From a virus, in IMG/VR virus record IMGVR_UViG_3300009553_000008, positions 1 through 40,920 of that record: 40,920 bases of DNA, one strand, 5' to 3'. Position 1 is the stretch's first letter; the number at the start of each line of letters is the position of its first letter. The position numbers were made by a program, and so were the translations under genes. The notes below the pieces were generated by a model. That model was not told where the DNA came from. It was given only the letters and a program-made list of their open reading frames with translations, and did no database searches. Below, piece after piece: positions 31,898 through 40,920 of the stretch.

Positions 31898-31922
31898 TCT
31901 TACCGTCAGATGTGGCAGTCTG
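31871..31922 (+). ncRNA. Long imperfect hairpin at the head of RNA island 1
   Basis: The arms 31871-31888 and 31909-31922 pair over 14 bp with three small bulges on the 5' side (at 31873, 31878-31879 and 31883) and a 20-nt loop. It is a strong inverted repeat in a gene-free stretch. It overlaps the putative promoter, so as RNA it would matter only for transcripts arriving from upstream. Confidence 0.45.
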
Positions 31923-31955
31923 GCAGGTGCATCACACCATGGTAGGATTACAACG

Positions 31956-32060
31956 AACCCCGGACATTTAGCGGGGCTGTGTGGTCAGACGGAAGGTGAT
32001 GCCTCTGTCAGATTGCCCAGCCAAGGGCCAGCCCCGCTAAGTCTCTGGGGTTTTTCTTTG
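31956..32060 (+). ncRNA. Three-way-junction small RNA ending in a U-tract
   Basis: A 24-position closing helix pairs 31956-31979 with 32029-32052; 23 positions pair (two G-U) and one C-C mismatches. Inside are two hairpins: 31988-32009 (8 bp with one bulge, UGAUG loop) and 32015-32028 (GCCC/GGGC, 6-nt loop). The helix is followed by TTTTTCTTT, so the RNA would self-terminate. It is too large and branched for an ordinary terminator. A promoter candidate lies just upstream (TAGGAT at 31943). Function unknown. Confidence 0.6.
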
Positions 32061-32076
32061 GTGCGACGGTTTTGGT

Positions 32077-32214
32077 GGGGCGCGAAGGTTCCAAGTTGTG
32101 GGCTGATGCGTCGATGGGGGTTGCTCCCCGGGCTCAAGCAGAGGGTGGCCGAAAAGGAACAGTCGGCCGATAAGTCCTTCAGCAAGCCGGGTTCAAGTCC
32201 CGGGCGCTCCACCA
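32077..32214 (+). ncRNA. tRNA-Ala-like RNA with two-hairpin insert in place of the anticodon
   Basis: Acceptor GGGGCGC (32077-32083) pairs with GCGCTCC (32204-32210), giving 7 bp with a G3-U70 wobble, the main identity signal for alanyl-tRNA synthetase. Discriminator A (32211) and encoded CCA (32212-32214) follow. The T arm is canonical: CCGGG/TTCAAGT/CCCGG (32187-32203), joined directly to the acceptor. The core is 103 nt instead of about 45. GCTGA (32102-32106) pairs with TCAGC (32179-32183) at the anticodon-stem position and encloses hairpins GGGG/CCCC (32117-32129) and GGCCGA/TCGGCC (32147-32168). The loop AAAGGAACAG can also pair with GGTTCC at 32087, a possible pseudoknot. No normal anticodon loop is seen. 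Confidence 0.68.
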
Positions 32215-32217
32215 AAA

Positions 32218-32458
32218 CCGTTCCTGACCGCACTCCGAGCGTGATGGCCTGGCCTGAATGGGCTGAACGGAAGAAAACACAGGGTTGTGAACCATGACAA
32301 CCCTCCGCAGCCTTGGCGCAGGGACTGCAAGAACCGGTAGCCGTGATGTGACAGGTATCGCACGGCAGGGATGTGAATGGCCCCTCAAGGGAACTTGGGC
32401 TTTCTAGGGCAGAAGAACCGGGAAGCTGGAGAAAGTGATCGACGTACGGTCACCCAGC
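32218..32458 (+). ncRNA. Run of five hairpins downstream of the tRNA-Ala-like RNA
   Basis: Hairpins by eye: CCGTTC/GAACGG (32218-32270, enclosing two smaller stems), GGGTTGT/ACAACCC with 8-nt loop (32282-32303), GCCGTG/CACGGC (32340-32366), GCCC...AAG-GGAA-CTT-GGGC with a GNRA-type tetraloop (32380-32400), and a bulged stem 32425-32458 (GCTGG/CCAGC around a GTGATCG/CGGTCAC stem). None is followed by a U-tract. The density of stable stems in 240 gene-free bases suggests one or more structured RNAs or a structured leader for the gene at 32482. Confidence 0.45.
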
Positions 32459-32481
32459 CTAGTTATGTCTGAAAGGAATGT

Positions 32482-35249: not shown

Positions 35250-35411
35250 ATGCCAAAGATTGACTACGGTTCAAACCAAGGCCGCGAATACGACGAATTC
35301 GCAGAAATCAACCATACAGAGCGCCGCAAATACATGTGGATCGTTCTGATTGCTGACATCATTGCCATCGTTGGCATCGCTCTTTGGGTTCATGCTTGGG
35401 CGACGGCGTGA
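35250..35411 (+). CDS. Single-span membrane micro-protein
   Basis: 53 residues from ATG 35250: charged N-terminus, then WIVLIADIIAIVGIALWVHA as one membrane helix at the C-terminus (tail-anchored topology). GTGA-coupled to ninB. Confidence 0.62.
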   Translation: MPKIDYGSNQGREYDEFAEINHTERRKYMWIVLIADIIAIVGIALWVHAWATA

Positions 35412-35842
35412 GCGAATTCAGGCACTTCGCCAAGCTCCACAACGCGCAAGACGGGCATGCAGTCCTTCAGCGTTTATGGACAGTTGCGAAGCCCTGGCTG
35501 CTTGCTGGGCACGTTCTGGAAGTGCGAGTAGGCCCCGAGACGCGCACGTCAGCAGAGAATGCATTGCTGCATGCCATGCTGACCTATATCTCCAAGCACC
35601 ACGAATGGGCCGGCAAGAAACGCGATGTCGAGACGTGGAAGCGGCTCATGGTGGCGGCATGGACACGGGCAATCGGCGAGCCTATCGAGCTTCTGCCGGC
35701 GCTGGATGGGAATGGCGTGGATATCGTCTTCAGACGCACCAGCCAGCTCAACAAGCGCGAGTGTGCGGACTTGATCGAATTCGTCTACGCCTGGGGTGCT
35801 CAGAACGACGTGAACTTTCCTCCGAAGCCGGCGCTGGAATGA
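35408..35842 (+). CDS. ninB: Recombination protein NinB
   Basis: 144 residues from GTG 35408. SEFRHFAKLHNAQDGHAVLQ, LEVRVGPETRTSAENALLHA and SKHHEWAGKKRDVETWKRLM are the NinB (lambda Orf) family pattern. Orf helps load recombination proteins on single-stranded DNA in place of RecFOR. The next gene is ninG, the usual lambdoid neighbour. Confidence 0.88.
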   Translation: MSEFRHFAKLHNAQDGHAVLQRLWTVAKPWLLAGHVLEVRVGPETRTSAENALLHAMLTYISKHHEWAGKKRDVETWKRLMVAAWTRAIGEPIELLPALDGNGVDIVFRRTSQLNKRECADLIEFVYAWGAQNDVNFPPKPALE

Positions 35843-36390
35843 AGACCTGCAAGATCTGCAAAACCAAGTTTGAGGCTCAACGGCCGATGCAGTCCGTGTG
35901 CAGTCTTGATTGTGCGATTCATAGCTCAAAGAAGGCGCGAGCATGGGCAGCCAAGGAAGATAGGAAGACAACCCGGGTGAAGCTGGAGAAGCTGAAGACC
36001 CGATCAACATGGATGAAGGAGGCCCAACGTGAATTCAATCGGTACATTCGTGAGCGGGATCGTGTGGCAGGATTTGGATGCATCTCCAGCGGTCGTGCGC
36101 TGGATTGGTCAGGGAACGCGACAGACGCCGGCCACTTCCGCAGTGTCGGGTCGGCGCCACACCTCAGATTCAACGAAGACAACTGTCACGCCCAATCGAA
36201 GCATGCAAACCGTTATCTCAGTGGTGATGCGGTCAACTATCGCATGCGTCTGATTGAACGGATCGGCCTTGAGCGTGTCGAAGCGCTTGAGGCAGACCAA
36301 ACGCCACGCCATTACGACATATCAGACCTCAAAGCCATAAAGGAAAAGTATAAGAAGATGGCTCGGGAGCTGAAGAAGAATGCGGCATAA
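35839..36390 (+). CDS. ninG: Recombination protein NinG (Rap)
   Basis: 183 residues from ATG 35839. KTCKICKTKFEAQRPMQSVC SLDC gives the N-terminal zinc knuckle, then EAQREFNRYIRERDRVAGFG CISSGR and DAGHFRSVGSAPHLRFNEDN CHAQSKHANRYLSG form the HNH-like core of NinG/Rap, a structure-specific Holliday-junction/D-loop nuclease. The frame stays open upstream to 35350, but the ATGA overlap with ninB fixes the start. It ends 7 bases before the first tRNA-like element. Confidence 0.9.
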   Translation: MKTCKICKTKFEAQRPMQSVCSLDCAIHSSKKARAWAAKEDRKTTRVKLEKLKTRSTWMKEAQREFNRYIRERDRVAGFGCISSGRALDWSGNATDAGHFRSVGSAPHLRFNEDNCHAQSKHANRYLSGDAVNYRMRLIERIGLERVEALEADQTPRHYDISDLKAIKEKYKKMARELKKNAA

Positions 36391-36397
36391 TAGAGTC

Positions 36398-36518
36398 TCT
36401 GGAGCGGCGTGGAAGGACACGCTAGACGGAGTAGATCAGCAGGGTTGAACTATCACCCGACCGATGCGCCTTGAAGGCTGGCAGATCGCTGAAGCAGGTA
36501 TCAAGCGCTGCCTCCAGA
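36398..36518 (+). ncRNA. tRNA-like element 1 (two-hairpin anticodon replacement)
   Basis: Acceptor TCTGGAG (36398-36404) pairs with CTCCAGA (36512-36518), 7 bp. D-like arm GCGTG-GAAGGA-CACGC (36407-36422). A helix TCAGC (36436-36440)/GCTGA (36488-36492) stands at the anticodon-stem position and encloses hairpins GGGT/ACCC (36442-36458) and TGCGCC/GGC-GCA (36465-36483, TTGAA loop). T-like arm GCAG/CTGC (36494-36511) abuts the acceptor but its loop is not canonical. Same topology as the RNA at 32077. No CCA. Confidence 0.5.
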
Positions 36519-36532
36519 ACTTTAGAGAATTG

Positions 36533-36676
36533 AATTCAGCGGTGGCGAAATTGGTAGACGCACCGTCCAGAAGGGTGATACGCGTCGCCCGGCGTGCTCT
36601 GCTCAAACCCGAGCAGATAGGCAGAGCAAGCCAGACGGCGTTCGGGATTGGAGGTTCGAATCCTCCCCGCTGAATT
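36533..36676 (+). ncRNA. tRNA-Leu-like element 2 lacking an anticodon loop
   Basis: The best tRNA match of the island. Acceptor TCAGCGG/CCGCTGA (36536-36542/36667-36673), extended outward by AAT/ATT to 10 bp. D arm GCG-AAATTGGTAGA-CGC (36545-36561) and T arm GGAGG-TTCGAAT-CCTCC (36650-36666) are canonical and Leu-like. The anticodon stem CCGTC/GACGG (36563-36567/36634-36638) is intact, but the loop is replaced by 66 nt that fold into GGGTGA/TCGCCC (36573-36590) and GGC-GCTCTGC/GCAGAGC-GCC (36591-36632). No U33, so a normal spliced loop is not evident. No encoded CCA. Confidence 0.7.
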
Positions 36677-36678
36677 GA

Positions 36679-36774
36679 GTACTCTGATGGTGGCCGTAGC
36701 TGACGCGCAGTTAGCGGTGCTCCTTCCACCGTCTCCAACGGCAGGCGTAACATCCTGCGCCACCTTCAGAGTGC
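36679..36774 (+). ncRNA. tRNA-like element 3 with CCU loop and 16-bp closing stem
   Basis: Closing stem 36679-36694/36759-36774: 16 positions with one U-U mismatch and one G-U. Inside: a D-like hairpin GCTGA/TTAGC (36699-36715), an anticodon-like hairpin CGGTG-CTCCTTC-CACCG (36715-36731; 5-bp stem, 7-nt loop with U33 and CCU at 34-36, the Arg anticodon for AGG), and a T-like arm GCAGG/CCTGC (36741-36758) with a non-canonical 8-nt loop. The T-like stem abuts the closing stem. Position 37 is U, unusual. Confidence 0.5.
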
Positions 36775-36885
36775 TTTGTCTAGGTCGCTTGCAGGCGCGT
36801 CTGCAAGTGCATGGGTAGCAAGGTCGGATGGTCGCTCCATTCCAGACGGTGAACCGTAGTTCGATTCGACGGGGCCTAGACAAAG
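36774..36885 (+). ncRNA. tRNA-like element 4 with canonical T arm
   Basis: Closing stem CTTTGTCTAGG/CCTAGACAAAG (36774-36784/36875-36885), 11 bp perfect, extending to 13 with a U-G and a C-G pair. A strong hairpin CTTGCAG/CTGCAAG (36788-36807) sits at the D-arm position. ATGG/CCAT (36811-36840) occupies the anticodon position, CGG-TGAA-CCG (36847-36856) the variable arm. The T loop TTCGATT (36860-36866) is canonical, with a stem CCGTAG/CGACGG holding one A-G mismatch. Some stems overlap, so alternatives exist. It shares base 36774 with element 3. Confidence 0.48.
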
Positions 36886-36887
36886 TG

Positions 36888-37028
36888 CTTGCTTACAGAT
36901 GCTGAATGCGCAGGTCGATGCGCAATGCTGAGGTCACCTAGCATGGACGAAATTTAGAGTGGCTTGCCCGTTTGTGGCGTAACGAGCGCAACGCAGGAAT
37001 TCGACACCTGCCAGCATCTGTAAGCAAG
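36888..37028 (+). ncRNA. tRNA-like element 5 with 17-bp closing stem
   Basis: Arms 36888-36904 and 37012-37028 are perfectly complementary over 17 bp. Inside are TGCGC/GCGCA with loop AGGTCGAT (36907-36924, D-like), TGCTG/TAGCA (36926-36943), a bulged stem TTGC...CGTT/AACG...GCAA (36964-36991), and a T-like arm GCAGG-AATTCGACA-CCTGC (36993-37011) that abuts the closing stem and has UUCGA in its loop. Five-way junction overall, like a tRNA with a large variable arm. It ends 20 bases before the next gene, whose RBS AAGGAG follows. Confidence 0.52.
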
Positions 37029-37048
37029 ATCAACGAAGGAGAGACTGA

Positions 37049-37273
37049 ATGACGCACACGGATATTCTGAATTCAGAGAGTGCGCATGAGCTGCGCGTGG
37101 AGTGCTTGCGCCTACGTCAGGGCCTATGGGATTGCTTCGCAGCATCAGGTGGCGACACAGATGGCGACAAAGATCCGAAGGCTTTGATGACGGATATCGT
37201 TGAGCTTGCTGTGGGATCGGTCGAAGAACTAAGTTCCGACTATGCCGTAGATATTTCTCGACGGCCTGATTGA
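37049..37273 (+). CDS. Hypothetical protein after RNA island 2
   Basis: 74 residues from ATG 37049 with AAGGAGAG at 37036-37043. MTHTDILNSESAHELRVECL then SSDYAVDISRRPD. Its strong ribosome-binding site right after element 5 suggests it is translated from a processed RNA. No family recognised. Confidence 0.62.
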   Translation: MTHTDILNSESAHELRVECLRLRQGLWDCFAASGGDTDGDKDPKALMTDIVELAVGSVEELSSDYAVDISRRPD

Positions 37274-39626: not shown

Positions 39627-39926
39627 ATGGCTCGCCCGAAAGGATCACCAAACAAGGCAACGCAGGCCGCTAGAGAGGCCATAGCTGCGTTTGTTGATGG
39701 CAATGCACACAAGCTAGAGGGCTGGCTGAAGGCGATTGCTGAGGGCGATCCTGCGAACGACATCAAGCCGAACCCTGCGAAGGCCTTCGAGCTGTACAAC
39801 AGCGTGATTGAGTACCACGTGCCGAAGCTCAACCGCACTGAGCTGACAGGCGCCAATGGCGGACCTGTCGAGACTGTGACGAGGATCGAGCTGTTCCCAA
39901 TGGCTGATGGCAACGGTAAGGCTTGA
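39627..39926 (+). CDS. terS: Terminase small subunit (TerS-like)
   Basis: 99 residues from ATG 39627 with GAGAGA upstream. MARPKGSPNKATQAAREAIA is the conserved start of a family of podoviral small terminase subunits; the middle (AFELYNSVIEYHVPKLNRTE) is a helical oligomerisation region. It recognises phage DNA and delivers it to TerL. Its end overlaps the terL start by 20 bases. Confidence 0.82.
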   Translation: MARPKGSPNKATQAAREAIAAFVDGNAHKLEGWLKAIAEGDPANDIKPNPAKAFELYNSVIEYHVPKLNRTELTGANGGPVETVTRIELFPMADGNGKA

Positions 39927-40920
39927 ACTTCCGCCGAAGCTGATCCCTGTATTCTCGGGTGAGGCTGATGTACGAGGCGCCTACGGTGGCCGCGGCTCAG
40001 CCAAGACACGATCATTCGCCAAGATGGCTGCGACACGAGGCTACATGTACGGCAAGTCAGGCATAGCGGGTCAGGTTCTCTGCGCCCGGCAGTTCATGAA
40101 CTCGCTTGAAGACTCCAGCCTTGAGGAGTGCAAGCGAGCCATTCAAGACGAGCCATTCCTATCCGATTACTACGAGATTGGAGAGAAGTACATCAAGAGC
40201 CGGGATGGACGAATCTGGTTCTCGTTCGCTGGCCTGGATCGCAACATCGGTAGCGTCAAGTCCAAAGGGAGAATCCTTTTGTGCTGGATTGATGAGGCCG
40301 AGCCCGTCACGGATCACGCTCTGACCGTGCTTATCCCAACCCTTCGTGAGGAGGGAGAGGGCTGGAATGCTGAGCTTTGGATCACATGGAACCCGGCCCG
40401 GAAGTCTGCTGCGGTAGAGAAGCGTTTCCGCAACTCCACAGACCCGCGCGTCAAGATCGCCAAGATCAACTGGCGTGACAACCCGAAGTTCCCGGCCGTC
40501 TTGGAGCGTCAAAGGCTGCGTGACCTGACTGAGCGTCCTGACGAGTACGACCATATTTGGGAGGGCGCCTACGGATCAGCACAGGGCGCAATCCTTGCCA
40601 AGTGGGTCAACAAGGCTGAGCGAGAGGGTCGCGTCACTGAGTTCATCAAGTTCGATCCTGACGGCGCTCCTATCGATGTAACGAGTGACATCGGATTCCG
40701 GGATACTGCTGCTTGGTGGTTCTGGCAGCGTTGCTTGGGTGGATACCGGCTGCTCGCCTACCTTGGCGATAGCGGCATGGATGCTGAGGAGTGGATCCCT
40801 CTCATTCGAGACAAAATCCTTGAGTTGAGTGGCGGCAAGCTGGGGAACATCTGGCTTCCTCACGACGCCAGGGCCAAGACGTTCCAGAGCAAGCACACCA
40901 CAGTTGAGCAGTTCCTGAAG
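39907..40920 (+). CDS. terL: Terminase large subunit, N-terminal part (continues at 1-489)
   Basis: The ATG at 39907 lies in another frame inside the terS 3' end. Residues 27-34 GGRGSAKT are the Walker A loop, and ILLCWIDEAE (Asp129-Glu130) is Walker B with the catalytic Glu. DVTSDIGFRDTAAWW (Asp261) starts the RNase-H-like nuclease. The ATPase translocates DNA into the head and the nuclease cuts the concatemer. Codon 298 is the first in the repeated 123 bases, where the map closes; the full protein is 459 residues. Confidence 0.93.
   Translation, partial: MATVRLELPPKLIPVFSGEADVRGAYGGRGSAKTRSFAKMAATRGYMYGKSGIAGQVLCARQFMNSLEDSSLEECKRAIQDEPFLSDYYEIGEKYIKSRDGRIWFSFAGLDRNIGSVKSKGRILLCWIDEAEPVTDHALTVLIPTLREEGEGWNAELWITWNPARKSAAVEKRFRNSTDPRVKIAKINWRDNPKFPAVLERQRLRDLTERPDEYDHIWEGAYGSAQGAILAKWVNKAEREGRVTEFIKFDPDGAPIDVTSDIGFRDTAAWWFWQRCLGGYRLLAYLGDSGMDAEEWIPLIRDKILELSGGKLGNIWLPHDARAKTFQSKHTTVEQFLK
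40798..40920. repeat. Terminal direct repeat, right copy
   Basis: Identical to 1-123 and in frame within terL. See the left copy for interpretation. Confidence 0.95.

Follow-up and report, generated by a model that had tools for sequence, protein, structure and literature searches.

The window analysed here, i.e., the entire stretch of 40,920 nucleotides (nt) of the virus record IMGVR_UViG_3300009553_000008 (IMG/VR, positions 1 to 40,920; one strand), harbours directly downstream of a ninG-like gene an array of structured RNA units, the second of which (U1) is a tRNA-Leu-like gene with a 66-nt insert in place of its anticodon loop. We see about an even chance that U1 represents one cassette of a mosaic phage RNA array, in which tRNA-like clamps display exchangeable domains acting on the host. 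The anatomy of this array is strongly supported, by covariation in case of one unit family (unit B, represented by U4) and by canonical sequence in case of units with a T arm, whereas its function is inferred.

Anatomy of U1 and its neighbours

The array (approximately 36391-37028) consists of structured units in head-to-tail order, all of them with a long closing stem, and extends from the end of ninG to just short of a small open reading frame (ORF), about 2.6 kb upstream of putative terminase genes (Table 1). A scan for inverted repeats enclosing 70-190 nt (score of at least 17) yielded eight closing stems in the window, whereas its block shuffles (n = 30) contained 0.37 on average and two at most. 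Four of the eight tile units U1 to U4, and three more are located at 31914-32222. Fold z-scores of U1-U4 and the detached unit U6 range from -3.3 to -5.4 (40 control stretches: -0.2 ± 1.1, minimum -2.3). This excess of stems, together with a z-score of -4.4 for U1, sustains the earlier view of U1 as a real RNA rather than a chance structure. The outer ends of neighbouring closing stems have bases in common (the outer pairing of U1 shares bases with U2), so that adjacent units may compete there.

U1 is closed by a stem of 10 bp, formed by AATTCAGCGG (36533-36542) and CCGCTGAATT (36667-36676), which exceeds the length of a tRNA acceptor and is extended outward to 36522/36687 by weaker, imperfect pairing. 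Inside follow a D arm (GGCGAAATTGGTAGACGC, 36544-36561), which we take to be identical to the D arms of tRNA-Leu, an anticodon stem (CCGTC, 36563-36567; GACGG, 36634-36638), an 11-nt variable region (36639-36649) and a canonical T arm (GGAGG-TTCGAAT-CCTCC, 36650-36666). The insert (36568-36633) forms two hairpins in a constrained fold, and the cloverleaf including it costs only 2.4 kcal/mol relative to the minimum free energy structure (-58.7 vs -61.1 kcal/mol). Thus, acceptor, D, anticodon and T stems are all present, while U1 lacks an anticodon and a 7-nt anticodon loop containing U33. The original prediction of an intact, canonical tRNA-Leu frame with an insert exactly at the anticodon loop is thereby borne out, and we agree that removal of the insert would leave no loop and that the insert is smaller than group I introns are known to be. 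The frame of U1 being a former tRNA-Leu, the anticodon loop of which was replaced by another domain, is supported as a reading of its sequence.

ARAGORN in standard mode gives no tRNA call for the window, and the Rfam tRNA model has no match there up to E 5. With introns allowed, ARAGORN reports a single gene (36535-36675) as "tRNA-Phe(gaa), 45-nt intron"; hence, an independent program also recognizes the tRNA frame. An exact search for the T arm of U1 in viral contigs yielded no occurrence, and a blast search of U1 against phages retrieved short tRNA pieces only, apart from one lead: Acinetobacter phage Silvergun (OZ038342.1, from 13564; L156 1501-1628) contains an unannotated 128-nt tRNA-Leu-like gene with a true tRNA nearby.

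The predicted extent of 36533-36676 is correct for the cloverleaf, but the object is bigger and represents one unit of an array. Likewise, U1 has no anticodon as proposed, but its neighbours are similar clamp-like RNAs, so it is no lone tRNA. Most of these neighbours have no normal T loop, and the family of U4 has no recognizable anticodon arm, so that the units are unlikely to serve in translation, whether or not an anticodon is present. Resistance to anticodon nucleases of the PrrC, RloC or PARIS type, which was originally suggested for U1, would be a hypothetical property.

The unit-B family and its variable cores

A motif of U4 (AATGCGCAGGNNGATGCGC) is shared with a prophage locus of Pararobbsia alpina (L304) and present in at least 120 viral contigs. 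The aligned frame comprises the closing stem, GAATGCGCAGGCTGATGCGC, a variable core, AAGCCGGAGATCAGCACCGGC and again the closing stem. A covariance model (R1), built from 40 sequences of other phages with the window left out, matches U4 at 36896-37020 (56.1 bits, E 5.5e-15), and further matches the P. alpina prophage (E 4.7e-19), phages HK620 (E 6.3e-23) and P1 (NC_005856 69817-69918, E 7.4e-18), as well as Bas77, a P1-like plasmid and locus L242. U4 displays the characteristics of the family: the closing stem, which covaries, a D-like and a T-like hairpin in set positions on either side of the variable core, and complementarity between D loop and T loop (GTCGA/TCGAC).

R1 was run on 97 sources, comprising L537, L304, the window and the greater part, but not the full set, of the 120 loci L415-L534. 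Among 105 R1 matches, 94.3 % of the pair cells are standard and 14 of 18 pairs vary on both sides (8 of 9 in the closing stem). Covariation over the whole structure amounts to 0.379 in the model-fitted alignment of these matches, as compared to 0.113 ± 0.007 in shuffles, and to 0.262 vs 0.090 in an unfitted alignment with the kissing pairs counted. The kissing loops occur in four versions: GCTGAT/ATCAGC (usual), GTCGA/TCGAC (U4 and L502), GGTGAT/ATCACC (L475) and GATGAT/ATCATC (L084); one kissing pair is broken in L523. This fourfold complementarity of D and T loops matches the prediction of a tRNA-elbow-like kiss, its weight being carried by the few exceptions, since the D motif was set by the search pattern and most sequences cannot vary there. 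For unit B, covariation thus shows a clamp with D-like and T-like arms that meet as in a tRNA elbow.

The cores enclosed by this frame vary from 28 to 158 nt (median 70) and fall into 85 similarity clusters for the 105 units. Only 28 of 440 unit pairs with frames at least 90 % identical also have similar cores, and identical cores recur behind differing upstream sequences. Compared to the window, L084 has a U4 ortholog (144/151 identical positions; ninG 399/535) and no U0-U2, and its U3 slot retains the outer stem, which encloses a different unit. The recurrence of cores in new settings and the swapped interior of U3 next to a retained U4 show that units are exchanged as modules; conserved frames with differing cores point to gain, loss and swapping by recombination.

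The unit-B family is present in P1, HK620, many Klebsiella and Escherichia phages and one Burkholderiaceae prophage, nearly always without annotation. A 39-nt piece of the frame matches 122 of 50,697 phage records, with no RNA annotation at the site among the matches listed (60 of 122), and an 85-nt probe containing a core of the P1 type has matches in 853 of 5426 complete E. coli genomes. In HK620 and HK633, the array occupies the whole leader from pR'/qut to S. In P1 it is located past dmt among trnA/trnT, mixed with real tRNAs and beneath the antisense ORFs plp and upl; the array in the P1-like plasmid is likewise interspersed with real tRNAs. Annotated plp and upl overlap the P1 array at NC_005856 69472-70041 and may be spurious. 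R1 matches were obtained in 3 of 72 ninG-based loci, in 4 of 44 terminase-based loci (one weak; L002-L045 of 80), in 11 of 79 loci found via a neighbouring small protein (several weak) and in one (L242) of the oversize tRNA-Leu-like loci L159-L250 (part of 120, see below). In a class-wide GTDB sample, 2 of 274 genomes scored above 40 bits, and we ascribe the weaker matches in 14 others (24-29 bits) to chance.

A descriptor combining a T arm with a long closing stem, applied to the loci holding unit B, gave 15 matches. Of these, 11 precede unit B on its own strand at a distance of up to 1 kb (eight of up to 12 nt), two of the 11 being near-identical P1-like copies, and none of the 15 lies on the opposite strand within 1 kb. 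The neighbour of unit B in L304 is a tRNA-Leu derivative with replaced anticodon region, as in U1, and the window, L304 and L242 each contain both long-stem Leu-like units and unit B (380 nt apart in L242). This upstream same-strand adjacency and the parallels in L304 and L242 indicate that U1-type units and unit B belong to the same kind of array. A single 159-nt tRNA-like unit of U1 anatomy with a 22-position closing stem, unmatched by R1, was observed in a marine phage contig (L076 419-577, minus strand).

Proposed function and alternative explanations

In the proposed mechanism, each cassette is a clamp, i.e., a long terminal stem with D-like and T-like arms joined in the manner of a tRNA elbow, and encloses a domain that varies from phage to phage. 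The array between ninG and late genes would be transcribed within the phage operon and the transcript cut into discrete, exonuclease-resistant RNAs, the displayed domains of which may target host factors in trans in the course of an infection. The likeliest targets would be host RNA-binding or RNA-cleaving proteins, including those of defence, with the domains serving as decoys or antagonists. Cassettes would be gained, lost and swapped through recombination, and the clamp of U1 may be an ex-tRNA-Leu whose anticodon loop gave way to such a domain. The decoy role originally suggested for U1 would be one form of the proposed array function. One may further speculate on a phage RNA "weapon rack", in which fast-evolving domains held by tRNA-elbow clamps each block a different host defence or RNA enzyme, ex-tRNAs being one source of clamps; this bolder version is considered less likely than not.

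Hypervariability within a fixed frame is the usual trace of host-phage conflict, and here a conserved tRNA-like frame with hypervariable interior occurs in textbook phages (P1, HK620), apparently nameless apart from STnc100/PasD. If the bolder version is true, the arrays would correspond, at the RNA level, to the anti-defence gene islands of phages and would have escaped notice in P1 and HK620. Their presence in P1 makes the function directly testable in laboratory E. coli.

Several observations weigh against the proposed array function. R1 matches none of U0-U3 or U6, so that the membership of U1 relies on adjacency, its closing stem and the parallels in L304 and L242. U0, which begins directly past the ninG stop, is a weak candidate for an array unit (predicted fold, z -2.0). 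Leu-like long-stem units also occur in L209 and L264, where R1 finds no unit B, and since few ninG-based and terminase-based loci hold unit B, the array is accessory. Promoter-like or terminator-like sites were searched for at 36250-37150 and none was found. Finally, the anatomy suits a role as base-pairing small RNAs (sRNAs) nearly as well as a decoy role.

The sRNA role represents the strongest rival, since only STnc100 and PasD have names among the relatives, and the available parts of the respective reports regard both as prophage sRNAs. Accordingly, the cores would be mRNA-pairing seeds (Hfq-type) and the clamp would provide stability, as assumed for STnc100/PasD; we regard this as rather unlikely. 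Rfam holds only one, distant relative of unit B, STnc100 (RF02076), an sRNA of enterobacterial prophages, which shares with it the prophage location and a similar frame with GGTGAAT.. on the 5' side and a CCGGG-AGGCA-CCCGG arm on the 3' side. STnc100 and R1 both weakly match the units of L524 and L527 (R1 27.0 and 24.1 bits, STnc100 34.7 and 29.5 bits), and STnc100 also weakly matches L537. According to the accessible portions of the publications, Pas sRNAs are abundant, Hfq-bound (RIL-seq) and northern-validated, with PasD being related to STnc100 (PMC13192938), and STnc100_4 was detected by northern blot in enterohaemorrhagic E. coli (PMC5331693). However, all STnc100 matches in relatives (29.5-37.8 bits) remain below the curated gathering threshold of 47, no match up to E 5 was obtained in the window, and STnc100/PasD have D and T loops of their own without the kissing pair. 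Moreover, the parts of the reports at hand describe single base-pairing sRNAs rather than clamp arrays with swappable cores, and seed RNAs would not need long closing stems, tRNA-type T arms or interleaving with real tRNAs. Apart from STnc100/PasD, no published description of the unit-B family turned up in open-access full texts.

A cis-acting leader for antitermination, attenuation or RNase III processing ahead of downstream genes, with no trans product, is improbable. The placement is leader-like (from ninG to late genes here, from pR' to S in HK620/HK633), and the HK620 leader holds the annotated late terminator tQ; however, the P1 units reside in another operon beside tRNAs, the cores are hypervariable, and a leader would not need several different units in series.

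Very little probability is assigned to the units being bacterial Y RNAs, i.e., tRNA mimics that tether the TROVE protein Ro60, bound at the long stem, to nucleases. Y RNAs (YrlA, RF02553) are likewise tRNA mimics closed by a long stem, at times in tandem, and are reportedly found in phages; the scan for oversize tRNA-Leu-like genes also recovered cyanobacterial tRNA-Leu-like arrays directly upstream of a TROVE gene (L347), the tandem tRNA-like units resembling each other. Y RNAs need Ro60, but no TROVE gene was found in the window, in 27 genomes or records with these units or in an E. coli control genome, even though E. coli is the host of P1 and HK620. Furthermore, the YrlA model reaches only 10.5 bits at an unrelated site of the window (gathering threshold 69), and no common sequence motif is apparent by eye in the closing stems. 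The TROVE and YrlA results thus disfavour the Y RNA identity suggested for the window by the cyanobacterial arrays.

Decaying, functionless tRNA pseudogenes are just as improbable: U1 and U6 are clearly tRNA-derived and several T loops are degenerate, but U1-U4 and U6 have long closing stems, stems and kissing loops covary, and U4 is more conserved than ninG; for unit B, the covariation refutes this explanation. Least probable is an intron-containing tRNA in which splicing of the insert leaves a working anticodon loop, as the intron-mode ARAGORN call would have it, since complete removal leaves U1 loopless, the frame is Leu-like rather than Phe, no splice-like ends common to neighbours or relatives are visible by eye, we know of no intron class of such size in bacterial tRNA anticodon loops, and ARAGORN intron calls are unspecific (318 genes in the window at relaxed scores).

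With respect to other known systems, the clamp array proposed here shares its loci with phage tRNA clusters such as that of P1 (trnA/trnT/trnI), tRNAs and units being interleaved in P1-like phages; the units differ from the tRNAs of such clusters in that they lack a usable anticodon, are closed by longer stems and enclose variable cores. The stable RNAs C and D of phage T4 are non-tRNA RNAs within a phage tRNA cluster and resemble the units in this respect. The transfer-messenger RNA (tmRNA; RF00023, permuted RF04321) shares a tRNA-like frame without anticodon, but its models match relatives no more than weakly (E 0.02-1, with bit scores far under the gathering thresholds). Model searches rejected YrlA, tmRNA and other Rfam families as identity of the units.

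Flanking features and oversize tRNA-Leu-like genes

Table 1 Units of the array and further features of the window
Feature	Position	Strand	Description	Basis
U0	36391-36532	+	tentative first unit; imperfect closing stem TCTGGAG..CTCCAGA, hairpins	sequence and fold
U1	36522-36687	+	tRNA-Leu-like unit, 66-nt insert replacing anticodon loop	stem scan, fold, intron-mode ARAGORN
U2	36670-36783	+	closing stem AGTACTCTGATGGTGG / CCACCTTCAGAGTGCT, three hairpins inside, non-canonical T loop	z -4.0
U3	36769-36890	+	long closing stem; just inside it T-arm-like CGTAG-TTCGATT-CGACG	z -3.3
U4	36888-37028	+	unit-B family, 17-bp stem CTTGCTTACAGATGCTG / CAGCATCTGTAAGCAAG	R1 match; z -5.4
U6	32065-32222	+	detached T-arm unit, canonical CCGGG-TTCAAGT-CCCGG	z -4.8
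Stem-closed structure	31955-32053	+	long stem (25 positions), then GGGGTTTTTCTTT; adjoins U6	z -8.0
ninG-like gene	35839-36390	+	directly upstream of array	similar phage PMG1 gene named NinG; NinG relatives
NinB	35384-35842			phrog_72 match
Putative small terminase and large terminase (incomplete)	39627-40920	+	downstream of array	names by authors' reading, from no family match

The encoded CCA of U6 is base-paired within a 19-position closing stem. A 35-nt match to Mycobacterium phage Wee beside its integrase suggested an attP-like site in a tRNA 3' end, but this account was rejected, as it leaves the 5' strand and the closing stem of U6 unexplained. The adjoining structure may be a terminator-like RNA. 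Between U6 and a PAPS-reductase-like gene, the region 32230-32480 looks structured; the sole find was a terminator-like hairpin on the reverse strand. The terminase region served as probe for relatives of the window, and PHROG matches of the small ORF are unnamed.

A pattern for oversize tRNA-Leu retrieved at least 120 viral loci (L159-L278). In 102 of the 120 loci listed, acceptor and T arm are intact, and standard ARAGORN calls none of these 102, indicating that oversize tRNA-Leu-like genes are common in phages; those in phage contigs measure 113-143 nt (e.g., L184, L226 and L232). Compensatory changes in an H-type pseudoknot between D arm and T arm were observed in L186/L211 and L170/L238. 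A pseudoknot core shared by the whole set was rejected, however, the signal being modest only (mean z 0.61; p ≤ 0.05 in 24 % of 58; U1 p = 0.07). A complement of the anticodon stem is present in 49 % of the set vs 38 % in shuffles, and both modest signals argue against a uniform fold. In genome contigs, many pattern matches are ordinary tRNA-Leu genes that have a neighbour or in which the 3' half is repeated; of 98 parsed matches, 38 were kept. In the bacterial contigs L300, L323 and L285, tRNA-Leu-like genes have the anticodon stem lengthened by a long hairpin and might contain introns of an unusual kind.

Tandem tRNA-Leu-like arrays are also present in cyanobacteria (L347 6265-7045, L315 24-996, L301 94-394 and L326 5390-5667). 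Their units carry a covarying insert at the anticodon position, composed of a GNRA hairpin and a helix with ..GAGGGTTATC. The L347 array is located directly upstream of a TROVE/Ro60 gene, TROVE is present in all eight such cyanobacterial genomes, and the YrlA model matches two cyanobacterial loci far below threshold. From these TROVE genes beside or together with the arrays and the sub-threshold YrlA match, the arrays are probably unregistered Y RNAs. In three of 41 contigs (one under the cut-off), oversize tRNA-Leu-like genes of large phages (L174, L184 and L202 in G008, G013 and G022) are accompanied by TROVE-like genes, which renders these contigs candidates for phage Y RNA systems.
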